Notes under the pieces: generated by a model
Databases searched by the model: none
Told to the model about the DNA's origin: nothing
Seen by the model: the letters and a program-made list of their open reading frames with translations, nothing else
Shown here: in pieces, positions 13,159-45,382 of the stretch
How positions within the stretch are numbered: position 1 is the stretch's first letter
How the letters are laid out: the number at the start of each line of letters is the position of its first letter
Program-made: the position numbers and the translations under genes
NCBI GenBank assembly: GCA_963575645.1
Contig: OY754467.1
Span: 36,949,108-37,013,107 of the forward strand
Direction: 5' to 3'
DNA: 64,000 nt
Source of the DNA: Xanthostigma xanthostigma
Taxonomy: Eukaryota > Arthropoda > Insecta > Raphidioptera > Raphidiidae

Positions 13159-13564
13159 CAAATTAGGAGCTGTTTCATCCATAAGAAACATAAGTTTCAA
13201 CAATAAATGTCTTATTACAAACAGAAAAATGTCTGTTGACTTAGGACTAATAATAAAAGAAACAATTTCATCTTTGATTCACCTAAACTCTCACTTCTGT
13301 GAAGGTTCATATCTAGCGTTACCTGAGATAAAAATTAGCTCTCGCATGATGTGAAATAAACAGTTACAAATTGCTATATATTAGAATGATGAATTGATCT
13401 TGCTGTGTCACTGTGGAGTAATGAAACTCAGTCCGCTGCGATAGTGGAAAGATTCGGGGTTCGTATCCCGATGGTGACATTATTTGAGAAATAAATTTTT
13501 CTAATATAGCGATGTAACAATGGGTGTGTCTTAACAATGTAGCGAACAGTGGCTACACTTGTAA
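12806..13564. repeat. Inverted repeat with two opposed tRNA-like sequences
   Basis: Left arm 12806-13106 and right arm 13271-13564 are reverse complements along about 295 bp with few changes. The spacer is about 165 bp. Each arm has a 74-nt tRNA-like segment (12893-12966 minus; 13406-13479 plus) with acceptor-like ends TGTCACT and GGTGACA, an anticodon-like stem TCCGC/GTGGA and a T-arm GGGTTCGTATCCC. The arm boundaries cross the end of the 12758-13158 TIR element, so the arrangement is composite. Confidence 0.7.
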
Positions 13565-15601: not shown

Positions 15602-16346
15602 TCTATACTAATATATAAAGCTGATGAGTTTGTTTGTTTGTTTTGTTCAACGCGCTAATCTTAGGAACTACTGGTTCGAATTGAAAAAAACATTTTTTTG
15701 TTGGATAGTTCAATTATCGAGGAAGGCTATAGACTATATAATATCACGCTACGACCAATAGGAGCGGAGTATCAATGAAAAATGTTGCAAAATGTATCTC
15801 AAAAAATAGCTTCTATTCAGATGAGATGCCGTAACCACATATATCAATATTAGGTCGTACATTCACAAGTCCGGCTGGGTCAGTCGGTAGAGCATGCGAC
15901 TGTTAATAATAGGGTCGTGGATTCGAGCCCCACGATGGGCGAATATATTTTTAATTTGTTTTAATTTCTACATTGCTTTCTGGTAAGGCTTACAGTTAAA
16001 TTTATTTTAATTTTATTTACGACTAATTAAAATTAAATAAATCTAGCTCATTTGAAAACTGTTGTAACTATAGGTACTTATATAAAAATAATTTTCCTAC
16101 AGTGTTTTCAATTAATTATTTATTATATTTTATTAATTACAGTAATTATTGTTTGAAAAGAAATTTATTACTTAAAAAAAGTATAAATACTGCTTTTTAT
16201 CGACAAAAACTTTTGAACGGTAACTCTGATCATCATGAAATTTGAACACAACATTCATCTCAGTAAACTAAGATGAACGTGCGTACTCATGTCCCTCCCT
16301 ACCATTCGTTCTTTTGCACACGGGTGAAACCGGGCAAGAGCGCTAG
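15602..16346 (+). mobile_element. Helitron-like non-autonomous element, copy A (tRNA-Lys-like insert)
   Basis: It follows an A and starts TCTATACTAATATATAAAG. It ends CGCTAG before a T, which matches the Helitron rule of TC...CTRR inserted between A and T. A short stem next to the end, CGG-GTGAAA-CCG, corresponds to the better 5-bp hairpin in copy C. The 745 bp contain the tRNA-like segment 15869-15941. It shares all blocks with copies B and C ('GAACGGTAACTCTGATCATC', 'GTAAACTAAGATGAA'). No Rep/helicase coding. Confidence 0.8.
15869..15941 (+). repeat. tRNA-Lys-like segment inside Helitron-like copy A
   Basis: These 73 nt follow the general animal tRNA-Lys(CTT) layout: acceptor GTCCGGC / ATGGGCG, D-arm GGTCAGTCGGTAGAGC, T-arm ATTCGAGCCC. 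The anticodon position reads GTT in a loop TGTTAAT, and the anticodon stem is broken (GCGAC against ATAG). It is probably a captured or derived pseudo-tRNA and not a working gene. Confidence 0.7.
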
Positions 16347-16925
16347 TGTATTATAAACACAACAGTATCAATTTATCGTAACGTATTTAACACATGGCGG
16401 AAAGTTTTAGGCCCGGCCCACAAGTCAAGCGGATACTACATTTACTTTGTGATCACGCTGTATTTAAGGACAATGTTTATATTCGACAACCCCGAAGATT
16501 GGTGTTGGAATTCGTTCTGTTAGCGATGCAAAGTGGGGCGGGGGAGGCGATCCGAGAGACGTGACAACGGGTGGTCTTTGCACTCACTGCCGCCGCTCCC
16601 GGGGGCTCTGGGACAACATGAGGCATTGTCTTGTCTCTGTTGCGTTCATTTACTGTGCATGTCTTCTTCATCATTCGCAGTGAGCACTTTGCCTCATTTT
16701 AATAATAATATGTTGTTCACAGCTCATAGACCGCAGTTATGAGTGACGTCGGTCCCGTGTAAGGTTTCTTTACGCTTTCAAGAGCCCTCGTTGAATCTAA
16801 AATATTATGACTTATGTTTATCATAAAACGAATTTTAAAGCTGTCGCGGCTCGTGGGTTCCAAGTTTATTGAATTGCTAGAAAAAGATTTTTTCTTATTC
16901 TCAAGGGTATAGACTATAGATAGGA
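16347..16925. other. GC-richer interval with no recognised gene
   Basis: 16480-16700 is clearly richer in G+C than its surroundings and ends with a pyrimidine run and CATTCGCAG near 16680, which could pass for a splice acceptor. Open frames exist on both strands here, but neither has a recognisable motif. A host exon or a captured gene fragment cannot be excluded. Confidence 0.3.
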
Positions 16926-17765
16926 CCCCGCACAAACCTTATAGGATTTGGTTCTCGGTTAAATGGTTTTATTTTATAGTTTAAAGGTTACTGAGAAAAA
17001 GTGTCCATGGGGGCATAGCCTAAAAATCAATAGATTTTTAACTTCAAATATGTTTAAGCAAGCGAGATTTCAGATGTATGGATATCTATTGAATTCACAA
17101 TTTATTAGTGTCCGACCGAAATTTCGGTTTCGGTCAAAAAACTGGTTTCGGCTTAGTTTCTGTTTCGGCTGCCCATCCGGCCGAAACCGAAACTACATTC
17201 GGAAGGTTTCGCGCTGAAATGCGATGCAGCTGCGAGCGACGAAGTGTCGTTTATGCCTGCACGCTCCGCGTTTTTTTTTCGCTTGAAAGAAAACTTTTTT
17301 ATTTTGATACTTTCGACTGAAGTAGGTACTTATTATTTGCATTAAAAATATTTATTTGGTTGTTGTATTTGATAGAGTTCTATTCAGACGTTAATCAAAG
17401 ATTTGAATATGTGATTAATTTAAAAAAAGGCTGATTATGATAATGTTTACTTTATTTTCCCCACGAAAACATGAAGTTTCGGTTTCGGCCGAAACTGAGA
17501 CTGAGGCTGAAATCAGGTTTCGGTTTCGGCCGTAAAAACTAGTTTCGGTCGGACACTATTCACAATCTTAAAAAAAACCAAAGCTCTATAAATATGTTCT
17601 CGAGTGCGCTGAATCCGAATATGACATTATTTTATGCAGGGTGACATCTTCCAACGTTACCTAGTTTTTGACTATTTTTCTATTTCTAAAAAAAGCACAA
17701 AAGTTGAACATGGAACATCTTTGTGAATTCAATGGGTATCCCTATATCTAGATCTTAGTTCTCTT
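16926..17765. mobile_element. Fold-back element F, copy 1, interrupted
   Basis: Starts GCACAAACCTTATAGGATTTG and matches 34893-35075 through 'GGTTTTATTTTATAGTTTAAA' and 'AAGTGTCCATGGGGGCATAG'. The right side ('CAATGGGTATCCCTATATCTA' near 17730) begins the inverted arm seen complete at 35213-35396, but the arm stops early. A MITE is inserted at 17106-17558. Confidence 0.6.
17106..17558. mobile_element. MITE with 'TAGTGTCCGACCGAAA' ends, inserted in F copy 1
   Basis: TAGTGTCCGACCGAAA at the left is inverted at the right end (TTTCGGTCGGACACTA). Subterminal regions carry repeated TTTCGGTTTCGGCC motifs, as in many hAT elements. TTCACAAT stands directly at the right (17559-17566) and at 17094-17101 on the left, with four extra bases TTAT between it and the left terminus. 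The F sequence at 35060-35090 gives the empty site. Confidence 0.7.
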
Positions 17766-18123
17766 ACGAAGCACCTAACTGAAATGGATTTACTATACAG
17801 GTTTTCCGGCAAATGAGATTGTAGCGTTTATACATTCATTAATAATCGTTCAACGTCAGATCTCGCTAGACGGCAGCACAGAATTTTTGTATAGTTCATA
17901 TCGTATGCTATACGCTGCTTACATTATACAAAATCTTTATAAGGGAGGAAAGTTAATTCCTTCACTTTAAAGAAGACACTTTCTCGAAAAAAAACTTTTA
18001 ATTAAAAATAACTAATGCCCTACTCTCTAGTTCTTATGAGTAATATTACATGTTATGAATTTGAGATTAAGGACGGCTGCACCACGAGAAGGCAAACATA
18101 ACTCTTACGTGATACTGTGTATT

Positions 18124-18703
18124 AGCCGATACCCGCGTCTTCGCACGCGATTGAGACGAAACACGGATGAATTCCCATTGTTTGGCATAGTTACTCCTTT
18201 CTCGAAGTAGACCCCCATAATAAATTTCAAAATTGTTAACATTCTCGCGATCAACGCCCTGACAAACCTTGAAAATGGCACCAATGTTGATTTTTAGACT
18301 ATTTGCTTCTTTTCACCCTCTGAAGGGGTTGTTTTTAAAAATGCATGAAAAACGTGTTTATTTATTTGTTGACTGGAGTAATCCTGCGAATTTTTGATAT
18401 GATGAATCTATCTTATATGGTATCTCCATGCAAATTTTAAACCCCCGTTACACCCTTTTAGAAGTAGAATTTTCAAAAATTCGTTCTTAGCGGATGCCTA
18501 CGTCATAATAACTATCTGTGTGCCAAATTTCAGCCCAATTGGTCAAGTGGTTTGAGCTGTGCTTTGATAGATCAGTCAGTCAGTCACGGTTTCCTTTTAT
18601 ATATTTAGATAAAACAATGTCACTCCGTCGCGTCAGTCAATCAGTCAGTCAGTCAGTCAGTCAGTCAGTCAGTCAGTCACGGTTTTCTTTTATATATTTA
18701 GAT
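18124..18703 (+). repeat. Dispersed repeat R, copy 2 (most complete)
   Basis: Runs from TTAGCCGATACCCGCGTC through 'GACGAAACACGGATGAATTCC', 'CAAATTTCAGCCCAATTGG' and 'TGATAGATCAGTCAGTCAG' to CTTTTATATATTTAGAT. The tail is partly duplicated: a second (AGTC)n array (about 18633-18680) is followed by a second copy of the terminal CACGGTTTTCTTTTATATA. No coding. Probably a non-autonomous retroelement with an AGTC microsatellite near its 3' end. Confidence 0.7.
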
Positions 18704-19552
18704 TAGTGTCGTGGTTAAACTTCGCCCGCAGTGTTTGTAAATATGAAAATTTTTGTTAATCTAATAAATCAAGCATATTTTACATACTTAGTATATCCCA
18801 AGGTTAATAGAGCAAATGTTGCCTCGGCCCGGTCGATAATAGTTGGTGATTACGTCATCCGGTGGATCTATCAACTTATTGAATTATTGAACTCTTCAAT
18901 GGCAGTATCAATATTCTGTCTTGATTTCTTTTACGCTTGTTAAATACTGCCATTTGACGTCACCCACCACTACTATCCAACGGAACGTGGCAACTTGTGT
19001 TCTACTAACCTAGATATATACCGATTAATTTTTTCACCTCTGTAAATTCTTAAGCTACGCCACTGTTGTGGTACAACTTTGATTGTAAACTGAATATTTA
19101 ACGAGATTCGAGTGTTAATTGGAGGTTAAACTACCTGTAACTAATTTTCGATTAAAAAGCCGGCCCGAACCGATATTTTATAAAAAGTAAATTACTTTGC
19201 TTTTTATAATTTCAATTCGTTTATTTTTATCCTTTCAACTTTCTTCTCTTCGGGTTTTTTTTTATTCTATTGGTTCATCTTCATTATACAGTGGCAGTAA
19301 TGTTCCCCAAGTGTGCCAATTTCCATGCATCTAACATAATGGCTTATTATAAGCATTATAGATGCCCAATACAGCCTGATTCCAGGTCCGGACTGACAAC
19401 CGTTTTGTTATCGGACTGAAAAAAACTTAAATACTTACAAAAAGCGTATTCAGCAGAAGGCAATATCGCACCCGTTTTAAGTACAAAAGCGTGTTATCGT
19501 CAGTCGTCTTTGCGCCGTGTTCATTTTGAATTTGAGGCGCTCAATTTATTGA
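18704..19552. other. Interval with no recognised gene
   Basis: AT-rich. Contains an imperfect inverted pair ('GTGATTACGTCATCCGGTGGA' near 18844 and 'GACGTCACCCACCAC' near 18956) that may be another small TIR element. No gene model is supported. Confidence 0.35.
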
Positions 19553-19849
19553 GATGTAGAGTTGCACATGAGGCCGATTTTGCCAATAGATTTGACTGCT
19601 AGTTTTCCAGCGTTGGTTTTCTTGACGGCTTCTTTTCAAGCTTGTTTTGTAGATGGGTTTGGTGCGAGCGCAGTGACTGAACTACATTCTATACAGCAAC
19701 TAAACACACCATGACCAGAGAGCAGAACGTGTGAGCAAATGCAGATACCATGACGCCATGTTGGTTTGTGGGCGTGTGTCCGTGTAGCACACGTGACAAG
19801 AAACTGGTTTCTGATTAATTTTTGCTCAAAACAAACAAGAAAATAGTTA
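19553..19849. mobile_element. Element G, truncated copy
   Basis: 'GATTTTGCCAATAGATTTGAC', 'TTCCAGCGTTGGTTTTCTTGA' and 'GTAGATGGGTTTGGTGCG' align with the left part of the complete G copy that starts at 19854. The terminal GGCCGCTGCACAC is degraded to GTTGCACATGAGGCC. Two G copies therefore lie side by side. Confidence 0.55.
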
Positions 19850-19853
19850 TTAA

Positions 19854-20281
19854 GGCCGCTGCACACCAGACTGGTTTTGCCGCTAGATTCCTTGCTAGAT
19901 TTAACTACTAGCTTTCAAGCGTTGGTTTTCGTGATGGATTTTACGTATTCGTTTCACACGATGTGTGTATTCAAGCTTGCTTTGTAGGTACGTACAGTGC
20001 GCGCGGTAACAAAAGTGGACGTTTATTGTATCTAAACAGAACACACACTAAGTAGTCCAGTGTTTGTTTGTGGGCGTTTGTTAAAGTCACCCACGTGACA
20101 AGATACTCTTTCCTGATTGGTTCTTGGTCAGAGCAAGCAGAGAACCTAGCCTCTGTTCTAATCTTGTGAGCTCGCAGGCGAGTCCGCAGTGACGTCATTT
20201 CCAGCCTCGTAGCCAGCCTGCCGGCCAGCAGAAGTCCAAGCCGAGTTTCTAGCAGTATTTCCTGCCTCGTGTGCAGCGGCC
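19854..20281. mobile_element. Element G, complete copy, TTAA-flanked
   Basis: Ends GGCCGCTGCACACCAGACTG and CCTCGTGTGCAGCGGCC form TIRs of about 20 bp, and TTAA stands at both sides (19850-19853, 20282-20285). TTAA targets suggest piggyBac-type integration, but the TIR lacks the piggyBac CCCT start. The small open frames on the minus strand inside it are repeat-derived. Related copies lie at 30736-32412, 28425-28472 and 19553-19849. Confidence 0.7.
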
Positions 20282-20285
20282 TTAA

Positions 20286-20846
20286 TATTGAAATCCATCT
20301 TGTAACCTCGCACGTGAGCTTCGTAATTGTTTGACGGCAATACTGCCTCCTAGTGAACACGCAACCGGAAATACGCATCTCGGAAGAGGTATGTCATTTT
20401 TTTCCTTTGAAAAAACCCTCGATAATCCGGTCGTAATATAGACCCAACGGTGATTTTTTTGTTTCTCGGTTGTGTACTTTGTTGAATAATATTTTCGTGG
20501 AAAGAAAATTCTTGATTTCAAAAAACTTTATTGTTTAATAAATTAGGAATACAGAACAGCGGCCTCCGGGCTTCAACACTTCACCTCTTCAGCTAACGTC
20601 TCTTCACTCCTGTTCCCTGGGTTCATCTTCATCTCTGTTTTAGGTTTAATTAATATTATATTTTATAAACGTAATGTGTAGACTCATATTATTAATTACG
20701 TTTGAAATTAAAAGCGCACCTTTTATGTATATAGTTAATTAGCAATTATAATAGCGTTCAGGTCAACGCCAAATACACACGCTGCTAGAAACTTTGATAA
20801 AATATGAGTGACAAAAAATGACTGAATTTTAATTGACTACTAGACA
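20286..20846. other. Interval with no recognised gene
   Basis: No repeat partner or domain found. Contains open frames below 80 codons only. Confidence 0.4.
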
Positions 20847-21394
20847 CAGCGTTGCCAGTTTTTTTTTTTGCCAAGTCGGGATTTTGGAACTTTGAGTGAA
20901 AACAGCAGGATTTTTCGTCGAAAGCGGGACATAGCAAAAAAACGTATATAAGAAAGTTTTCAAATACCTATTTTCTTTTTATTTGAATTAAAATTACGTT
21001 TACGTGACAATAGAGAGGTAGCAAAAATAGCTATAGAAAATTTTAATAAAAATATAATATTTTAAATCAGATTTACCCTATCGTTAAATAGTTGAGTCTT
21101 ATTCGTCTTCAGAATAAAAAAAAAAAACAAATCAAAATCAAAAAAGTTTTATTCATTAGAAAAATATGGCGTTTCGAACAATAGTCTGTGGAGTGAGTGT
21201 TACAAATTGCAACTTACAATAGTTAATAAGAGAATAATTATTTATAAGAATTACTTATTCATGATATTTCTGTGAAGATTTAACTTCTTTTAAAGTTATC
21301 CCCGAGTTATCCCTGAAAAGCGGGACTGAGTCTGTCCCGCGCGGGATTTAAAAATCGGGACGTCCCGCCAAAATCGGGACGTCTGGCAACGCTG
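20847..21394. mobile_element. hAT-like MITE with exact TSD ACTAGACA
   Basis: Termini CAGCGTTGCCAG and CTGGCAACGCTG. ACTAGACA is duplicated exactly at 20839-20846 and 21395-21402. Subterminal GGGAC / GTCCCGC motifs occur on both sides. A 'CAAATCAAAATCAAAA' stretch near 21128 resembles common LINE 3' tails and may be a nested fragment. Length is 548 bp, the same as the relative at 31154. Confidence 0.85.
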
Positions 21395-21402
21395 ACTAGA
21401 CA

Positions 21403-22233
21403 GTACATATTATAAAAAATGTAAGTTGAAAACTTCTCAGAAACAAGCCTTTATTAAAATAAACTAAAACGAATAAATCAAATTATTTTTTATCATTGTT
21501 GAACTGGCCTGAATGCTTTTCATGAGAAATTTAAATTTTGAATTTTTGCAAGCTTTTAGGTAAAGTCAACAATGATAATATAAGGATTTTTATTTGTTTG
21601 ACTGTTTGTTATTTTTTTCGTATTCGTACATTCTATTTTAATTAATTTTTTTGGTATCGTACATTCTATTAATTTAATTTCGTTTTAGTCATCTACTCTA
21701 TATGCAAAATTGGAAAGTAATAAATTAAGCGGAAGTGGTTCAAAATTCGACTTGTATGATTTAATTCCAACTAATATAGACTGCATGACTGACAAACATG
21801 TAAAGTTAAATAAAAGCTTGTAAATAAACCCTACTTATTATTTCTTGCAGTGGCATTATATACCTAAACTAATTACATTGTGACTGCTTTTTATGAAAAA
21901 TAAAAACCACGAAATCTGTAAGCAGGAGAACCAGCTCGAGCCTATAGCGGTGGACCGATATCTGTCGCATGAACCGACACGGCGTCAGCTACTGGGTAAC
22001 GCACGTTCATGGCTCACATGTGTGAAGTTAAACAACTTTGGTAACTATGGTGAAAACAGGTGGAAAAAACTAAAGTTTTCTCAGGTACTGATAACAGCGC
22101 CATCTTCCGTGCGCCAGAAAACGGTCCATATCGAAACACAGCAAGCAAAGTCTCCTGTTTAAAGACTTCGTAATAAAAACTTAAAAAAATGAACCTCCTT
22201 CTAAAAAGTGTATAATAATAAAGTTTTGAAGAC
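21403..22233. other. Interval with no recognised gene
   Basis: A frame of 89 codons at 21893-22162 has ordinary composition but no recognisable motif. An overlapping frame on the other strand makes coding doubtful. Confidence 0.35.
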
Positions 22234-22364
22234 GACGCCAATTTTAAACTACAACTTTCTGTGCCTATGCGATTTGTTTCATTTATTTTATGTATAGAAT
22301 AAATGAAACAAATCACATAGGCACATGTGCCTTTGTGATTTGTTTCATTTATTAAATTGGCGTC
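22234..22364. mobile_element. Short hairpin MITE-like element
   Basis: GACGCCAATTTTAA (22234) is inverted at TTAAATTGGCGTC (22364). The interior is a strong hairpin (GTGCCTATGCGATTTGTTTC, 22261, against its complement ending 22324), followed by a third direct copy GTGCCTTTGTGATTTGTTTC at 22328. It may be a three-arm cruciform remnant. Confidence 0.5.
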
Positions 22365-22628
22365 AACCTCAAAAATTCACCATTTAACTCTACTTAATGA
22401 CCTTTTTTCAAGGAGGATTTGTTTTTATTTTTTTCTTATTTTTTACTTTTTACTGGCTTTGTAATACATAGTTTACACGCTATTAACCGCCATCTTGCGT
22501 CATTATTATTAAACTAGACAGAAAATTACTTAAACGATTTAAGTAAAGCTAATGTGAGACCACTCTGAAGGTATTCCTAAATAAATAAAAAAATAATAAT
22601 CAAAATCGGTTCACAAACACCGAAGATA

Positions 22629-23535
22629 ATGGGTGTTTTTTTTAGAGGTATACAAGTTTAAAATGAAATAAAACACGTAAAAATAAGGTTGCTGGCCACG
22701 TTGTTGGCTTTGTTTAAAATATAATTTTATGCCATTAATGTTTAAATATGATTTCGGGCATATGGACGCCACGGCTGGCTTGAATGAAGCGCAATCGGGA
22801 AGTCCAATTTTCGATCACTTTATCGAGCATCTGGGGCCGTATATCGCCAATAGCGCGGCGAATGTTGACTTCCAAGTGATCCAACGTCTGTGGTTTATCG
22901 GCGTAGACTAGTGACTTCACGTATTCCCAAAGAAAGTAATCCATAGGTGTGAGATCAAAATTTTGCGTTGAAAAAGAGGATCAAGCTGAATATTGTTTTC
23001 GGCCCATTCACCGAACGTACGGCGCGCATAATGGTCACGCGGATTTAACTCTTGCACAAGCTGGATATTGTAAGCTCGTAAACCAAGATCTTTTCGCAAA
23101 ATCTTCCACAACGTGGATGGGCACAGTCCCAATTGCTGTGCACGACGGCGTATCGACTCATTCGGGTCCTCCTCAACACTACGCACCACAGCAGCAATGG
23201 CATCTTCTGTGCGCACTGCATGGCGTCTTTGTGGATGCGTATTATCAACTAGAGTATGCGTAGTTCGAAAACGATCCATGGTTTTCCGAATAACTTGCTC
23301 GGATGGACGATTATGTCGACCGTAAAATGGACGTAGCGCACGGTTAGTTTGGCAAACTGAACCATAATTTTCAAAATAAATTTGCACAATTTGCAAGCGT
23401 TGTACTGATGTAAGTCTATTCATGGTTAAATGGCAAAACATACTGACCACAAATCATCTGTCAACTGTCAAATTAACTGTCACTTGAAACGGTGTTGCCA
23501 ATTTCAAAACCAAACCTCCAAAAAAAAACACCCTT
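22629..23535 (-). mobile_element. Internally deleted mariner-like transposon
   Basis: TA flanks both ends (22627-22628, 23536-23537). The TIRs read ATGGGTGTTTTTTTT and AAGGGTGTTTTTTTT. At 907 bp the element is shorter than an intact relative (about 1.3 kb) because the transposase core is missing. The right TIR is followed by the 5' UTR and the gene on the minus strand. A Helitron-like copy starts 20 bp after its right end. Confidence 0.85.
22735..23423 (-). pseudogene. Mariner-family transposase with central deletion
   Basis: Translation starts MNRLTSVQRLQIVQIYFEN (the Met at 23423 is preferred over one nine codons upstream). The first about 65 residues form the first helix-turn-helix, and ESIRRRAQQLGLCPSTLWKI (about residues 90-110) forms the second. 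After RTFGEWAENNIQ the catalytic core is lost. The frame then runs 30 codons to a stop at 22917. In a shifted frame the C-terminus resumes at about 22965 with DLTPMDYFLWEYVKS, containing the last catalytic Asp region, and ends VHMPEIIFKH. The first two catalytic Asp residues are absent, so no active enzyme can be made. It resembles a transposase family widespread in insects. Confidence 0.85.
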
Positions 23536-23555
23536 TATAAGGTAATATATGTATA

Positions 23556-24163
23556 TCTATTCTAATTTATATAAAGCTGAAGAGTTTGTTTGTTTGAACG
23601 CGCTAATCTCAGGAACTACTAGTTTAAATTGAAAAATTTTTTTTTTTGTTAGATAGCCCATTTATCGAGGAAGGCTATAGGCTATATAATATTACGCTAC
23701 TACCATTAGGAGCGGAGCTTTAATGAAAAATGTTGCAAAATGTACCTATCTCAAAAATAAGCTTAATTCATGTGAAATGCACTAACTAGATATACTCATA
23801 TTAGAGTTGTGAGAACACAACCTCAGGTGGCTCAATCGGTAGAGCATGCGACTGTCAATATCAGGGTCGTCGGTTCGAGCCCCACGTTGGGCGAATATAT
23901 TTTTATTTTTTACATTGCTTTCTTCTAAGGCTTACATTTAAATTTATTTTAATTGTATTTAATTATAATTTAAAAAAAATTATTACTTGAAAAAAGTTTA
24001 AATACTGCTTTTTATCGACAAAAACTTTTGAACGGTAACTCCGATCTTCATGAAATTTGGACACAACATTCATCTCGGTAAACTAAGATGAATGTGTGTA
24101 CTCATGTTCCTCCCTTCCCCATTCGTTCTTTTACACCTGGGTGAAACCGGACGAGACCGCTAG
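23556..24163 (+). mobile_element. Helitron-like non-autonomous element, copy B (tRNA-Lys-like insert)
   Basis: Preceded by A, starts TCTATTCTAATTTATATAAAG, ends ACCGCTAG before T. 608 bp. Co-linear with copies A and C, including the tRNA-like segment at 23821-23893 and the 3' block 'GTGAAACCGGACGAGACCG'. A LINE 3' fragment follows almost at once. Confidence 0.8.
23821..23893 (+). repeat. tRNA-Lys-like segment inside Helitron-like copy B
   Basis: 73 nt with D-arm GGCTCAATCGGTAGAGC, T-arm GGTTCGAGCCCCACG and 3' end TTGGGCG, as in tRNA-Lys(CTT). The anticodon position reads GTC. The 5' acceptor strand (CCTCAGG) no longer pairs with the 3' strand (TTGGGCG). Confidence 0.7.
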
Positions 24164-24171
24164 TAACAAAT

Positions 24172-24415
24172 AAAATTTTAAATGTTTATAACAAATTACC
24201 CCCTAGACTGAAAGAGCTACCAATAAAAAAGTTCAAGCAAGAACTCAAAATTTACTTAAAAATAAATAGTTATTATTCTATGAACGTTTATTTTAGTCAG
24301 CCATATTGATATTATTTTTTATTTTATTATATTCTCTTGGAAATTGTTAATGTTGACCCATTCTACACTGTACTCACTACTCAGTATGATGGAATAAAGA
24401 TATATTATTATAGGT
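24172..24415 (+). pseudogene. LINE 3' end: last 45 codons and 3' UTR
   Basis: The frame 24172-24309 reads VYNKLPPRLKELPIKKFKQ, then LKIYLKINSYYSM and a stop. This is the usual C-terminus of jockey/CR1-group reverse transcriptase proteins ('YNKLP..ik.l....Fk..lk.yL'). A short 3' UTR follows and ends near GATGGAATAAAGATATATTA. It is severely 5'-truncated and lies 8 bp after Helitron-like copy B. Confidence 0.7.
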
Positions 24416-25098
24416 ATAAAAAAAACTTTTTCGCTGAAGTCAATTAAAAACGACTAAACCGATTTAAAAAAAATACATGAGACCAATTCATAAATATTCT
24501 GAAAAAAATGGCATTGAAATTTTCGATTTACCCCTCGAAAAGTTATAGCTGATCATACAAAAAAAATATACACCTGTCCTTTTTTAAGTCGGTTAAATAA
24601 ATGCTTAAAAAAACAGCACGTTTAAAAATGATAAAATTTAAAGTGGCGCCATTATAAATCTCGTCAGTGAAAATACAAAAACTTCTTAAATTAACGCTTT
24701 CTTTGATTTGAATGAAAAAATTCTAGAAATTCCAGAAATATATTTAGCTACACTACACTCACTGGGATATCACCATCTTCCAGAGATGTGTTTATGTATT
24801 ATTTGACAATATTCTAAGTCGTAATATGCATTTATAGTATGTAAATAACCACTCCAGGCTTCTCAAATGTACAGGACACGCCGTGACGCAATATATACTA
24901 TACATATATGTAGGATGAATGTAGGTTTGTTAAACTCACTACTAGCGGCCTCGTATTAAAGACCGCCAAGACTGCTTATAAACAGAATATTGTATTACCT
25001 GTATACATAATATTGAACAGCTGGGGTAAACTGCCCTGTCCGGCTTTGGTCGGGTGCAAATCGCTATTTAACTTTCTGCTCATCATCCTTTTGTCATA
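24416..25098. other. Interval with no recognised gene
   Basis: Near 24430-24600 are phrases ('AAAACGACTAAACCGATTTAAAAAAAATACATGA') typical of decayed retroelement 3' sequence. No coding domain is visible. Confidence 0.4.
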
Positions 25099-25445
25099 AT
25101 AAGTACTGGATTCGAATTCCGGGGGAAACAGATGTGGGTAGAAGTTTTTCTACTGGCATAATGCTGAGATTTTCCATACTTTTCTTTAATAACTCCAGAT
25201 ATCGAAATAGTTCCTTGGCAAAGCCATGCCCGATTGCTGCCAAAGTTATCCTAATTTCCTATAAACCCTCTTTGAATCAAACTGTCGTAGTTGTCGAACG
25301 TCTATAATCTGTAATAAATAAATATTAATTAATTAATAAAAACACTGATGAAATTTGAACATGTAGAAGAATAAATGGGAATAAAATACCGAAAACGTGG
25401 CAAACTCAATAGTAATTGTGCGAGTGGCGTCTAATAAAATCGTCA
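25099..25445 (+). repeat. tRNA-derived SINE, degraded copy
   Basis: Starts in the T-arm (TGGATTCGAATTCCGGGG) and follows the body of the SINE at 59709: 'AACTCCAGATATCGAAATAG', 'TTCCTTGGCAAAGCCATG', 'CCGATTGCTGCCAAAG', and a 3' block ending GTGCGAGTGGCGTCT. The head before box B is lost. Confidence 0.55.
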
Positions 25446-25459
25446 AAGTATATTTTCAT

Positions 25460-26105
25460 CGGAGTTACACCTGCACGCAAAATTTCAACTCAATCGGATA
25501 ACCGAAAACGCGTCAAAATTTACTTGGAAGATTTGTAGCAGACAGACGACAAATGAAGACAAAAGCTTTCAAGTAAAAACAATTGCGAATTTCATTCGCC
25601 ATATTCATACCACCATCTTGAATTTCTAAATTTTGATAAAAAATTGAGAACCTTGGAAACTCCTTGTTAACGATTTTGAGTTCAATTTGTACATAAATAA
25701 TGATAAAATTCGTTTGTCATATTGAAGCCACCATCTTGAATTTTTAATACATAAAACCGTTAAAGCTTATTGTCATCGAGACTACACCCGTATGCAAAAT
25801 TTCAATATAATCGGATACCTGAAAGTGCGTCAAAATCGAGCTGCAAGATTTGTAACAAACAGACAAAGCAAGTTAAATTAAAACTTCTTGTGTGGCAGAA
25901 AGATAAGAGCTAACTTTGAAGCCGCCATCTTGATTTTTTAATACATAAAACCATTAAAGTCTACTGTCATCGGGACTACACGCGTATGCAAAATTTCAAT
26001 ACAATCGGATACCTGAAAGTGCCTCAAAATCGAGCTGCAAGATTTGTAACAAACAGACAAAGCGAGTTAAATTAAAACTTATTGTCTGGTAGAAGGACAA
26101 GAGCA
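25460..26105 (+). repeat. Tandem array of about 190-bp units
   Basis: Two close units begin at GCCACCATCTTGAATTTTT (about 25726) and GCCGCCATCTTGATTTTTT (about 25921). Each continues 'AATACATAAAACCRTTAAAG', 'GCAAAATTTCAATAYAATCGG' and 'GAGCTGCAAGATTTGTAACA'. Two more diverged units lie upstream (25450-25720). The phrase 'CAAAATTTCAACTCAATCGG' is typical of arthropod retroelement 3' regions. Confidence 0.7.
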
Positions 26106-26537
26106 AAATTATTGGAAGCCTAACATAATATTTAACTGCTCTGAACAATATTGAAAACAAAATCAATCGTATTTTCCGCTGCCTTGATCTACGAGGTTGC
26201 GTTTTTTTTGTAGCGAAACAATAGTGAACGTAGTTATTTTATTTTTTTACAAGTGAAATCTGATTTGGAACAGCGAAGAAAACAGAAAACGGAGGGACAC
26301 GCTTGTATTTGTGAACACACAAGACGTGTTTTCTGTTAGAGAACGCATAAGAGACAGATAAACGAACATTCATACCTCAGGCAAAACATCAAACTTTGCA
26401 TACCGTAACCCGTGACGTGTTTTTCTCTCTTTCTTACGGACAGACTGTCTCACTTACTCAATGTTGAAACACTACCATTGGCCGCAACGGAACTATGTTC
26501 TGGTATATTTATGCATCGCTGAGACATATATAACTAA
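26106..26537. other. Interval with no recognised gene
   Basis: No repeat partner seen. Ordinary AT-rich sequence. Confidence 0.35.
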
Positions 26538-26764
26538 TAGCCGTTACCTGCGGCTTCGCTCGCGATTCAGACGAAGCACGCATGCATTCCCATTATTTGG
26601 CATAGTTACTCGATGTAGACCTAATGCCCTAAGAAATTTTAAAATTGATGACAATAACGTGATCAACGTCCCGACAAACCTTGAAAATTACAATTTTTAG
26701 ACTATTTACCTATTTTCACCCTCTGAAGGAATTGTTTTTAGAAAAAGCACGAAATACGTGTTTA

Positions 26765-27377
26765 TCTATACTAATATATAAAGCTGAAGAGTTTGTTTGT
26801 TTGTTTGAACGCGCTAATCTCAGGAACTACTGGTTCAAATTGAATAATTTTTTTTTTGTTGGATAGCCCATTTACCGAGGAAGGCTATAGGCTATATAAT
26901 ATTACGCTACGACCATTAGGAGCGGAGCTTTAATGAAAAATGTTGCAAAAAATATCTCAAATATAAGCTTCTATTCATGTGAAATGCACTAACTAGATAT
27001 ACTCATATTAGTGATGAAAGAACACAACCTCAGATAGATCAATTGGTAGCGCATACGACTGTCAATATCAGGGTCGTGGGTTCGAGCCCCACGTTGGGTG
27101 AATATATCTTTACTTATTTTTTTTATTTTTTACATTGCTTTCTTCTAAGGCTTACATTTAAATTTATTTTAATTTTATTTAATTCATTTAAAAAAAATAT
27201 TAGTTAAAAAAAGTTTAAATACTGCTCTTTATCGACAAAAACTTTTGAACGGTAACTCCGATCATCATGAAATTTGGACACATTCATCTCGGTAAACTAA
27301 GATGAATGTGTGTACTCATGTCCCTTCCTTCCCCATTCATTCTTTTGCACCCGGGTGAAACCGGGCGGGACCGCTAG
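26765..27377 (+). mobile_element. Helitron-like non-autonomous element, copy C, nested in R
   Basis: A precedes TCTATACTAATATATAAAG, and CTAG (27374-27377) is followed by T. The 3' hairpin is perfect here (CCCGG-GTGAAA-CCGGG) and ends 11 bp before CTAG, as in canonical Helitrons. 613 bp, no target duplication, no coding. The tRNA-like segment is 27028-27100. Confidence 0.85.
27028..27100 (+). repeat. tRNA-Lys-like segment inside Helitron-like copy C
   Basis: 73 nt ending GGTTCGAGCCCCACGTTGGGTG, with anticodon position GTC in CTGTCAATA. The D-arm has changed (GATCAATTGGTAGCGC). The T-arm is intact. Confidence 0.7.
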
Positions 27378-35795: not shown

Positions 35796-36667
35796 AACTT
35801 TTTATATCTTTTGAACGGAGTGTCCGACTGAAACGCGGTTTGCGGCATCTGTCGTGATCTTGGTGAACTTAGACTTCCTGAAAATTTGAAACGATTCGGC
35901 CCAAAAAATTTTGAGAAATCTTAAAAAAACAAGTTTCAAAAATTTTTTAAAATTTGTTTTTGTAAAATATTTTCTAAACTACTAAACCGAATAATTCCAA
36001 AATCTAATCAGCTCTTCTCCTTAACAAACTGCGTCGATTTCCGCAAACCGCATCAAAATCGGTTCATTTGTTCACGAGATACCGTGAACGAAAAAATCGT
36101 AAAAAAGTGTTTTTTTAAAATGATTCTTAAAATTGTTATCAGATCGATTTTTTTGTAATAAATTACTTTCTTAGGCTAAAAAAACTGCGTCGATCACCGC
36201 AAACCAGATCAAAATTGGTTCATTTGTTCATGAGATAACGTGAACGAAAAATTAGGAGAAAAGTAATTTTTTATAATTACTCGTAAAATTGTTATCAAAT
36301 CGATTTTTCTGTAATAATTTACTTTCTTAGGTTAAAAAAACTGCGTCGATCGACGCAAACCGCATCAAAATCGGCTCATTTGTTCACGAGATATCGTGAA
36401 CTAAAAATTTGTAAAAAAGTGTTTTTTTAAAATTGCTCGTAAAATTCCTATGAGATCGATTTTTCTGTAATAAATTACTTTTTTAGGATAAAAAATTGAG
36501 TCGACTGCCGCAAATCGCATCAAAATCGGTTCATTTGTTCATGAGATATAGTGAACGAAAATTTCGTAACAAAGTGTTTTTTTTGAGCTCGAAGAGCTAA
36601 AAAATAAACTTCTTGCTATATTTTATATATTTTTGAGCGTTTTGAACTCGAAAATAGCGGGAAGTTA
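35589..36667. mobile_element. TIR element with GT microsatellite and about 160-bp tandem units
   Basis: AACTTCCCGC at the left and GCGGGAAGTT at the right are inverted, and a second CGGGAAGTTA at 35634 makes a short hairpin with the left end. A (GT)n run lies at about 35754-35782. Four units follow, starting near 36025, 36180, 36337 and 36495, each with 'CTGCGTCGATCRCCGCAAACC', 'CATCAAAATCGGTTCATTTG' and 'ACGAGATACCGTGAACGAAAA'. No coding. Confidence 0.7.
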
Positions 36668-42277: not shown

Positions 42278-43156
42278 ATACCTAGTAGTGATGTGTCGCC
42301 CCTGAGCGAGTCGTTCACAATGAACGACTCCTTTCTCGAAGCGGAGCGAGTCGCTCTTTTTTTTGTGAATGACTCACTCTGAGCGCCATTGCTCTGTGCT
42401 GAGCTGTTCTGTACTTTTACATTCGCACATTTACAGAGCTCACACAGCACAGACCACAGAGGCACTAGTGAATTTTGCACGTATACGGAGTTATCTTTGC
42501 TGAGTCATTTAATGTTGAATGACACACTGTAAGTGTAATAGTACTAAGCTTAACAGTGACTTAAACCATTCACATTGACGTCGTTAACAAAGATATAATA
42601 TTGTAACAATAAACATTATTATTGTTAAGCTTTTATTATACTTTATACTTTATCCGAAATGCAAATAATATATTAAGATCAGAATCATATTAAAATGAGT
42701 TCAGAGCTGATTATGTATTGTGCTGTGCAATGCTACGTGACTCCTGAGTAGTGATGTGCCGGATCGTTAAAAATGTATATCCGCGGATACGGATCTGAAT
42801 ACGGATATTTGGTTTGAAGATCCGCGGATACGGATCTTAAGTTTCTTAGAGTACGCGGCGGTAGGTATATATTGCACATCGACCTTTGAAAAGAGACTAT
42901 CGGTTATGGGAAAAAGTTATTGACCTCTTTAAGAGTTAACTCTCATAACAGATTGTCTCTTTCCAAAGATCGATGTGCAATATCTCATTATAAAGATAGT
43001 TTTTTAGTACCTTTGGGTTATGTACTATTGGTATGGTACTCACTACGATAAATGTTTGCAATATAAAGGTGCCAAATACGATTTTAAAAAATAAAAAATA
43101 ATCTGAATGGAATTTAACAGTTTTTCATTATTACCTAATCACCTATATATATAAAA

Positions 43157-45382
43157 GGGAAAACACTGCTTGAATATTCCACCAAATTTCAATACAGCAT
43201 TTGGTCTCCTAATAGCCCTACATGCTATACCTCAAAAACCAGACCTAGTGTTATTGATTTAGCGATATCCAAAAATATCAGTACAATAGAAAAACTATAT
43301 ACCTTGCCATTGCTAAACTCTGACCACAACCCAATAATATTAAATATTGATGCAAAACTTATAATTAGTAAACCAAAGAAAATTTTTGATTACAAAAATG
43401 CCAACTGGGATAAATATCGTAAAATCCTAGATAACTCTCTCCATCTAAATTTCAAAATAAAAAATACAAAAGAGTTGAATACTCACGTAAAATATTTCAC
43501 AGACTCATTATTAACAGCAGCAAACGAGGCTATTCCAAAAACGGTTAATAGTTGCAATAACACACCCGCTATACCGCAATACTTAAAAACATTAATTAAA
43601 ATCAAAAACAAAGTCAGGAAAAAATACCAAAAATACAGAACACGGTCACTAAAACTATTACTACATAAACTAAATAACATAATCACTAGTAAACTTTATC
43701 ACCACAGGAACTGTTACTGGAATGAAAAACTAAATAAACTAAATTCCAAAGATGGATCCTTATGGAAATTTACTAAAATTTTTAAAATGCAAAAACATAC
43801 AATACCTCCATTAATCAATACTGACGGTACCTACAGTTTTAATGACTACGATAAAGCAAATCTAATTGCTGAAAGTTTTGAAAAAATACATCGAACTACA
43901 GTTGATTTGAGTTCTACTTACTTTACAAATTTTGTAATCAAAGAAATAAAAAAATATATAAACCCACAAATAACTAAACATGTTGATGCAAAATTAACGT
44001 CTCCAGCTGAAATAGTTTCCATTATTAAAAAATTAAGACCAAAAAAGACCCCAGGCTTCGATGAAATTCAAACTGTTCTTCTTAAAAACATGTCTCGTAA
44101 AGCTATAGTATACCTGACCAAGTTAATAAATGAAATGCTACTTACCGGATACTTTCCAAAAATCTGGAAACAGGCAAAAGTTTTACCTTTGCCTAAACCC
44201 GGTTTAAATCCGGAAATCGCGGTCAATTATAGACCAATTAGTTTATTGAGTGCTGTATCAAAAATAGCTGAAAAAATAATTGCTAAAAGAGTAATGACAC
44301 ATTTAGATGCTAATAAAATACTAATTGAAGAACAGTTTGGTTTTCGTCAAAACCGTTCATGCGTCACATTATTGGCCAAAACAGTAGACAAAATTACGGA
44401 ATCTTTTAACTGCAAAAAACATACAGGTATGCTGTTACTAGATATACAAAAAGCATTTGATACAGTCTGGCACAATGGCTTGATATTTAAACTACTAAAG
44501 TACAATGTTCCAAAATATCTGATATATTTAATAAAATCATACCTCACGGAAAGAAGCTTTAACGTCACCATTGGTGATACCAAATCAATAGATAAACACA
44601 TCTCAGCTGGAGTACCACAAGGATCCATACTAGGCCCACTCTTATTTATCATCTTTATAAACGACATTCCAAAAACTGCGCATACTGAAATTAGCTTATT
44701 TGCCGACGATACAGCTGTGATAACTGAATCCTATCGCACAGACACAATAGCCAACAGGCTTAGTAAAGCAGGAGATAAAATTCTTAAATTCTACAATAAG
44801 TGGAAAATAAAACCGAACGTATCAAAAACAGAAGCTATTTTATTCACAAAACGTCGTCCGAACATAACAAAAAAAGTTTGCTTAAAAAATACACTCATCA
44901 ACTGGTCAAATCATGTAAAATACTTAGGGGTTCATTTGGATAAAAAATTAAATTTTACGCATCATATAAACAAATCCTGTGACAAAGCCTTAGGGGTTAT
45001 GTCAAACTTATTCCCTCTACTTAACAAAAAATCAAAATTATCAATTAAAAATAAGTTAATTATATACAAATCAATTATTAGGTCCATAATTCTATATGCT
45101 TCTCCAGTATGGAGCCTCACTTGCAAAACTAATCTAAAAAAGCTTCAGATAGTTCAAAACAAAAGTTTAAGAATTATTGGAAACTACCCCCGGTATACCC
45201 GAATATCTCAATTACACTCAGATATTAACATAGAACTAATTTTAAACCATATTCGGAAACAAGCAAACAAATTTTTCACCAACAGAATAAATCAAAACAA
45301 ATTCAAAATAGGTAATTATAAGATAACTGATACATATTATAAGCATAAAAGGATAAAAAGCATCTTAAAACCAGATTCATGA
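43157..45382 (+). CDS. LINE ORF2 (partial): endonuclease C-terminus and reverse transcriptase
   Basis: The frame is open for 741 codons from the truncation point to TGA at 45380-45382. It has no native start; a TTG at 43304 is internal. Residues 1-60 are the end of an APE-type endonuclease: SPTCYTSKTRPSVIDLAIS and the catalytic SDHNP (43319-43333). The reverse transcriptase follows, with KKTPGFDEI, NYRPISLLSAVSKIAEK and QFGFRQNRSC, then the first catalytic Asp in LLDIQKAFD (44441), GVPQGSILGPLLF (about 44609-44646), the FADD box (44699-44710), and KTEAILF / YLGVHLD. The C-terminal part (LYASPVWSLTCKTN, LQIVQNKSLRIIG) is typical of jockey, with no RNase H domain. The absence of any stop or frameshift over 2.2 kb implies a recent insertion. 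The protein lacks a complete endonuclease and the whole of ORF1, so this copy is not autonomous. Confidence 0.92.
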   Translation, partial: GKTLLEYSTKFQYSIWSPNSPTCYTSKTRPSVIDLAISKNISTIEKLYTLPLLNSDHNPIILNIDAKLIISKPKKIFDYKNANWDKYRKILDNSLHLNFKIKNTKELNTHVKYFTDSLLTAANEAIPKTVNSCNNTPAIPQYLKTLIKIKNKVRKKYQKYRTRSLKLLLHKLNNIITSKLYHHRNCYWNEKLNKLNSKDGSLWKFTKIFKMQKHTIPPLINTDGTYSFNDYDKANLIAESFEKIHRTTVDLSSTYFTNFVIKEIKKYINPQITKHVDAKLTSPAEIVSIIKKLRPKKTPGFDEIQTVLLKNMSRKAIVYLTKLINEMLLTGYFPKIWKQAKVLPLPKPGLNPEIAVNYRPISLLSAVSKIAEKIIAKRVMTHLDANKILIEEQFGFRQNRSCVTLLAKTVDKITESFNCKKHTGMLLLDIQKAFDTVWHNGLIFKLLKYNVPKYLIYLIKSYLTERSFNVTIGDTKSIDKHISAGVPQGSILGPLLFIIFINDIPKTAHTEISLFADDTAVITESYRTDTIANRLSKAGDKILKFYNKWKIKPNVSKTEAILFTKRRPNITKKVCLKNTLINWSNHVKYLGVHLDKKLNFTHHINKSCDKALGVMSNLFPLLNKKSKLSIKNKLIIYKSIIRSIILYASPVWSLTCKTNLKKLQIVQNKSLRIIGNYPRYTRISQLHSDINIELILNHIRKQANKFFTNRINQNKFKIGNYKITDTYYKHKRIKSILKPDS

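Follow-up and report, generated by a model that had tools for sequence, protein, structure and literature searches.

A non-autonomous Helitron family of Xanthostigma xanthostigma carries a tRNA-Lys-derived block that looks like passive cargo

The closest known systems are two lepidopteran groups of non-autonomous Helitrons, Lep1 (PMC4038834) and those of the silkworm (PMC3789558), which have a 5' TC, a 3' CTRR-type end and a 3' hairpin, insert between A and T, occur as many short copies and hold acquired sequence inside the element or at its 3' end. The family described here resembles them in ends, hairpin, A/T insertion, abundance of short copies and possession of acquired sequence. However, the word tRNA is absent from both texts, whereas the present family carries a tRNA-Lys block; the silkworm captures were sought by BLASTX and hence comprise protein-coding fragments only (PMC3789558). 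In Arabidopsis, a tRNA-Cys cluster overlaps annotated Helitrons and tRNA genes have been proposed as cargo, a feature shared with our family, but there none of three Helitron finders placed a reliable element across those genes, and the copies are local and in tandem (PMC10701932). The present copies, in contrast, have clear ends and are dispersed by the thousand. A Heliconius repeat likewise spreads tRNA-derived sequence within a repeat having a Helitron-like part, although its cargo is a named SINE, Metulj (data not shown in PMC4016481), whereas the present cargo is a near-canonical tRNA-Lys with flanks, whose start is not at the end of the insert. Helenus LTR elements also carry tRNA-derived, promoter-like sequence in another class of mobile element, and their boxes A and B are reported as conserved (PMC10886601); in the present blocks we found no conservation beyond that of the flanks. 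Among the listings and passages covered in the open-licence literature, none describes an insect Helitron that bears such a block.

The window, a stretch of 64,000 nt from X. xanthostigma (GCA_963575645.1, contig OY754467.1, positions 36,949,108 to 37,013,107 of the forward strand), holds three copies of the family, here W1, W2 and W3, with the following features (window coordinates):

15602..16346, + strand: Helitron copy W1, older long type, 745 nt (ends and alignment; among the matches listed, 40 relatives of full or nearly full length)
15807..16200, + strand: insert of W1 relative to the short form, approximate (short-copy comparison; left edge uncertain by several bases)
15869..15941, + strand: tRNA-Lys-derived block of W1, with GTT at the anticodon position and changes in box A as well as box B (Rfam 22.2 bits)
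16314..16346, + strand: 3' terminus of W1, with the hairpin region and CTAG (sequence reading)
23556..24163, + strand: Helitron copy W2, 608 nt (ends and alignment)
23758..24015, + strand: insert of W2 (short-copy comparison; edges approximate)
23821..23893, + strand: tRNA-Lys-derived block of W2, anticodon position GTC, both box consensuses matched (Rfam 23.4 bits)
26765..27377, + strand: Helitron copy W3, young type, 613 nt (ends and alignment)
26962..27231, + strand: insert of W3 (short-copy comparison; edges approximate)
27028..27100, + strand: tRNA-Lys-derived block of W3, anticodon position GTC, box A changed and box B matching (not reported by Rfam)

The first-pass annotation had assigned these copies to Helitrons from their ends, and all three bear this out: TC at 15602, 23556 and 26765 is preceded by A (3/3), CTAG ending at 16346, 24163 and 27377 is followed by T (3/3), and each has a 3' hairpin around GTGAAA. 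W2 and W3 are 89% identical in the alignment of the window copies, and W1 aligns to them at 79–82% over approximately its first 440 nt and at 86–88% over its last part. For the first 256 nt of W3, the 40 matches that were scored are 97–100% identical.

Across the genome, the 5' core of the family is present at 13,175 places, and block-bearing copies number roughly 4,500. The sample comprises the first 100 copies listed on one contig by exact match to a 23-nt core, a choice that favours young copies of both classes: 54 bear the block, 39 have a short form of approximately 340 nt with the same ends but no insert, and 7 fit neither class. Among the 93 block-bearing or short copies, a 5' end was recognisable in 81, of which 71 start with TC (preceded by A in 61/71), and a 3' end in 89, of which 69 finish with CTAG (followed by T in 68/69), counts made with end finders tuned to this family; the 3' hairpin pattern was present in 75/89. 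The Helitron label, which had been made to depend on TC/CTRR ends in most copies, stands, with TC and CTRR ends, A/T insertion, a 3' hairpin and no target-site duplication. An equal 4-mer lies on both sides of 5/49 copies, above the approximately 0.3 expected from base composition, an excess that may reflect a preference for TA-rich sites in A|T insertion. Three exact family patterns had no match in viral_contigs or in phages, and the canonical tRNA-Lys(CTT) sequence was not found in viral or phage records.

The blocks of W1–W3 share one position in the alignment, as had been claimed for a tRNA-Lys(CTT)-like sequence, and the anticodon positions read exactly GTT, GTC and GTC. In the window itself the blocks fall outside the tRNA models: in a low-threshold Rfam search, RF00005 scored W2 at 23.4 bits (E 0.38) and W1 at 22.2 bits (E 0.84), both below the gathering score of 29, with no match reported for W3; at the gathering threshold Rfam gave no match within the window, and ARAGORN found no tRNA there. 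By BLAST, the blocks are 73–77% identical to tRNA-Lys(TTT) genes of the genome over 56–68 nt, 69–75% identical to an odd tRNA-Lys(TTT) gene (L060) and 79–81% identical over 62–64 nt to L066, which is itself a Helitron copy. The tRNA-Lys(CTT) label fits the blocks because relatives within the family keep CTT. Near-canonical tRNA-Lys copies occur at 21 places in the genome; in all eight that were read, the copy passes the tRNA model (Rfam 47–58 bits), seven lying within Helitron sequence and one in a rearranged fragment. A tRNA-Lys origin of the block is supported. A chance resemblance was rejected, given that the block recurs at one place (54/100 sampled copies) and that CTT-bearing relatives exist. 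ARAGORN calls tRNA-Lys in each of the eight better copies, and annotation of such genomes hence needs Helitron masking.

In every subfamily read, the sequences on either side of the block are homologous, on which ground we rejected separate captures per subfamily. The earlier view that capture came before spread, drawn from the shared position, agrees with these flanks, and a single uptake of the tRNA block before the family spread appears well supported. Taken as a whole, the history that we consider probable begins with a non-autonomous Helitron family of approximately 340 nt that would have gained, once, an insert of roughly 390–400 nt holding a tRNA-Lys(CTT) gene, presumably donated by the host, together with flanking DNA. 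The enlarged element would then have been mobilised in trans by Helitron machinery, with RepHel probably supplied in trans, and the block-bearing element would have split into several subfamilies, while the tRNA block seems to decay like the rest of the element as passive cargo. Observed within this history are the Helitron ends, the one shared insert position, the empty short form, the several subfamilies and the neutral-like change in the boxes. Helitron_like_N occurs at 89 places in the genome, including 34 within open frames that are 1,498–1,620 aa long. With a very numerous and clear tRNA gene as Helitron cargo, and an empty short form that persists, uptake and the fate of the cargo can be studied in one family.

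No donor locus for the insert was found. One candidate, L173, was rejected as it carries a Helitron 3' half and end, and a second, L170, is not supported as donor: it is a mosaic, preceded upstream by a different repeat, and its tRNA has two changes. The insert may instead have been a mobile element itself, tRNA-related and SINE-like or other, that landed in a short Helitron, after which the composite spread as a Helitron; we regard this as somewhat unlikely, and it concerns only the origin of the insert and is compatible with the single uptake set out above. It would account for the CGACAAA on both sides of the insert in subfamily B (left copy exact in 6/11, right copy in 9/11, no readable right side in 2/11), a motif that occurs once in the short form, and a nested element has a precedent in the Heliconius repeat, of which there are 21,461 copies and in which a Metulj SINE is combined with a Helitron-like part (PMC4016481). 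The repeated CGACAAA was found in subfamily B only; the left CGACAAA is absent from the other subfamilies, and it could therefore stem from exchange with a short copy. In L170 the right part of the insert extends as far as its right edge, and the 907 nt read contain no 3' half of a Helitron, but this locus is the mosaic noted above, and 140 nt further down it has a 45-nt stretch otherwise found only in L066, L067, L126 and L156. The tRNA part also starts about 58 nt inside the insert, unlike the usual tRNA SINE, in which it forms the 5' end, and the near-canonical tRNA with a T run after it resembles a tRNA gene with its own flanks. The mobile unit as such is not a tRNA-derived SINE, given that the Helitron ends lie outside and the tRNA is internal.

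A tree built from the ends only (89/104 rows usable, 80 of which belong to the 93 block-bearing or short copies of the sample) bears on which form is older. A neighbour at under 3% was found for 21/44 block-bearing copies versus 0/36 short copies, mean pairwise divergence is 0.112 for short and 0.076 for block-bearing copies, and branch length is 0.052 and 0.020, respectively. The opposite polarity, in which the block-bearing element is ancestral and the short form arose by deletion of the insert, is in our judgement unlikely: although the shared-ends tree is weakly resolved and some block-bearing copies do not stand apart from short copies, the short copies are more diverse with longer branches, the young long copies are nested together, and the doubled CGACAAA looks like the scar of an insertion. 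Recent amplification is confined to the block-bearing copies of the sample, and the block marks the most recently amplified branch of the family. However, this amplification is a single lineage, and the block may hence have hitchhiked. Block-free copies of the same age had been named as evidence for passive baggage; block-free copies do exist (39/100) but are older in the sample, the opposite of what that refutation called for.

Recent amplification confined to block-bearing copies would also result if the block gave a benefit. It would then serve as a functional Pol III promoter, or as a site for TFIIIC (box B), would aid movement or accessibility of the element and would be kept by selection. 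To evaluate this, trees were built from the flanks only and changes on internal branches (source lineages) were counted separately from terminal ones, with 49 of the 54 block-bearing sampled copies (five with large gaps were dropped) plus W1–W3, L066 and L067. In a first pass with six half-splits, box B had an internal/terminal ratio of 0.12 versus 0.38 in the flanks. After cross-validation with windows it no longer stands out: box B lies at the 28th percentile of flank windows (0.14 versus 0.34 in the flanks; Fisher p 0.23) and box A at the 67th, with no reduction (0.47 versus 0.36). Box B changes less than the rest of the block in source lineages (3/21 versus 51/83, nominal p 0.018), and its few internal changes keep the consensus (G57/A57, C60/T60); a second run with 90 rows gave 4/27 for box B versus 313/1112 for the flank (p 0.28), and the lower ratio of flank G/C columns (0.29) than of A/T columns (0.41) weakens the hint. 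Among the 49 full blocks, the consensus is matched by box B in 35, by box A in 34 and by both in 23, and TTTT follows within 30 nt in all 49. Even so, W1 and W3 fail the box A consensus, W1 also fails that of box B, and in the young W3 group box A is altered, with C11 replaced by A in 36 descendants. Selection on boxes A and B was not supported, as box B is unremarkable among the cross-validated flank windows; neither box is reduced beyond the flank windows in source lineages, in a comparison of limited power. Retention of the Pol III promoter, proposed in the first-pass annotation, was not supported, and the boxes change like the surrounding Helitron sequence in the source lineages of the sampled copies. 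We consider the promoter reading quite doubtful. Were the block active, a DNA transposon would have acquired a Pol III promoter. Judged from sequence, the block looks like passive cargo.

It is highly improbable that some of the Helitron-borne tRNA-Lys(CTT) copies are live, that is, Pol III-transcribed and perhaps charged, such that the Helitron would have disseminated a host tRNA gene or even taken its place. In the assembly, no sequence came within one change of the canonical tRNA-Lys(CTT), although a host gene of different form may exist. Of two patterns for the CTT arm, the one with a T-A outer pair has a single match in the assembly and the one with a C-G outer pair has none.

Inspection of the ends in the sequence bears out the three Helitron-like elements described in the first-pass annotation, each holding a tRNA-Lys-like segment (the block):

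15602–16346: Helitron-like copy W1, block at 15869–15941
23556–24163: Helitron-like copy W2, block at 23821–23893
26765–27377: Helitron-like copy W3, block at 27028–27100

In pairwise alignment, W2 and W3 are 89% identical, and W1 shares 79–82% identity with them over its first part and 86–88% over its last; W1 is longer because approximately 125 nt 3′ of the block are absent from W2 and W3. ARAGORN finds zero tRNAs in the whole window, and the Rfam search scores the blocks of W2 and W1 at 23.4 and 22.2 bits, both short of the family cut-off (29); the block of W3 is not among its hits. The window also contains:

22259–22326: long near-perfect hairpin, probably a small inverted-repeat element, with weak, sub-threshold scores of 34.8 and 28.2 bits for two unrelated miRNA families
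22917–23453 (−): 178-codon ORF encoding a DUF4817 helix-turn-helix domain; W2 starts ~100 nt away
25722–26104: tandem array, 194-nt unit
36026–36583: tandem array, 156-nt unit
43139–45382 (+): LINE-like 747-codon ORF that encodes a reverse transcriptase domain and weakly matches an endonuclease

Across the 623-Mb assembly (28 contigs), searching for the family's 5′ core gives 13,175 hits (≤1 mismatch), and for the reversed core, used as a control, 0; the block T-arm plus 3′ flank matches 4,493 places (≤2 mismatches) and the junction of a block-free short form 5,253 (≤1 mismatch), all three being pattern counts and not whole elements. Among the first 100 listed places of the exact 5′ core, 54 copies carry the block, 39 are short forms with both ends the same as in the long form (306–364 nt in 35 measurable copies) and 7 are neither; hence, the block is confined to part of the family. 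Uptake of host DNA by Helitrons (PMC3789558) and tRNA-derived sequence within other mobile elements (PMC10886601, PMC4016481) are already known from the passages concerned, and in Arabidopsis a tRNA gene has been proposed as Helitron cargo, in the relevant text without a reliable Helitron call (PMC10701932). In contrast to the Arabidopsis case as described there, the present family has clear Helitron ends and a very high copy number.

Of the 49 copies in the sample whose block is nearly complete, 30 read GTC at the anticodon position, 13 CTT and 6 other triplets; CTT is retained in subfamily B (11/54), in loci L126 and L156, and in L066 and L067, which came from a separate search. What we take to be the canonical tRNA-Lys(CTT) matches 21 genome places with ≤3 mismatches, 4 of them at two, and none with ≤1, compared with 14 loci for tRNA-Lys(TTT) by ARAGORN. 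In all 8 of the 21 places that were read, ARAGORN calls a tRNA-Lys (7 CTT, 1 TTT) and Rfam gives 47–58 bits, and 6 have Helitron sequence on both sides; L173 lacks the 5′ part and retains the 3′ half of the Helitron with its terminus, and a ninth place lies within a full-length match from the genome search with W1. Given that these near-canonical copies are called by ARAGORN and sit mostly in Helitron sequence, the block of the family ancestor would, judged by sequence, have differed little from a genuine tRNA-Lys(CTT). The genome search with the canonical sequence did not identify the host's own tRNA-Lys(CTT) gene, nor did a looser CTT arm pattern among the minority of its 262 matches that were read. 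A second tRNA-like repeat, perhaps a SINE, lies around base 1501 of L061–L065 (RF00005, 39–45 bits over ~60 nt; no ARAGORN call), with similar sequence across the five loci.

At the insert site the short form reads GTCCGTCCGACAAAAAC. Subfamily B has GTCCGTCCGACAAA, the insert (block plus flanking DNA) and then ...TTTTTAACGACAAAAAC, and this repetition of CGACAAA suggests that the insert entered a short form. The left CGACAAA is exact in 6/11 subfamily B copies and absent from other subfamilies, so it possibly arose by exchange with a short copy. Some 58 nt of the insert precede the tRNA and AATATATTTTT follows it, the arrangement expected if a tRNA gene came together with its native flanks. 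The insert may be filler DNA at a break, as favoured for another insect Helitron (PMC6544945), or a nested element. In locus L170 the insert is present from 30 nt 5′ of the tRNA as far as the insert's right edge; a different repeat lies upstream, and the 907 nt read contain no Helitron end. A 45-nt stretch 140 nt further down is otherwise found only in L066, L067, L126 and L156, CTT-keeping copies in which a different stretch, partly present in L170, replaces the usual sequence after the insert. L170 hints at an original segment longer than in most copies.

Matched against consensuses that we assume for the internal Pol III promoter, 34/49 blocks have box A, 35/49 box B and 23/49 both; W2 matches both, W3 box B only and W1 neither. 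TTTT follows within 30 nt in 49/49 blocks, which means little in DNA so AT-rich. Changes were counted on internal (source lineages) and terminal (single copies) branches of trees built from flanks only, giving 286 and 845 for flanks, 8 and 19 for box A, 3 and 21 for box B, and 51 and 83 for the rest of the block. As means of five cross-validations against flank windows of equal size, the internal/terminal ratios of box A (0.47), box B (0.17) and the whole block (0.50) fall at the 67th, 28th and 74th percentiles. No constraint on either box or the block is detectable against these windows, and retention of the Pol III promoter by selection is not supported. A box B deficit relative to the rest of the block (nominal p 0.018) and an acceptor-stem excess of internal changes (26 internal, 27 terminal; p 0.0003 against pooled flanks, in a region picked post hoc, the 5′ side reaching only the 93rd percentile by windows) are hints.

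Over the shared ends, the median terminal branch is 0.020 for block-bearing copies (n = 44) versus 0.052 for short ones (n = 36), and 21/44 versus 0/36 have a neighbour at <3%. In the sample, the copies that transposed recently are block-bearing; with a single lineage, this pattern cannot be told from hitchhiking, and in the young W3 group both box A and the acceptor stem are changed. Helitron_like_N matches 89 genome places (for example, C16:25398, 49277 and 74286), 34 of them within ORFs of 1,498–1,620 aa. Many have identical scores, and the set appears to reflect recent amplification of autonomous Helitrons, whose ORFs could be the putative machinery acting in trans for the family.
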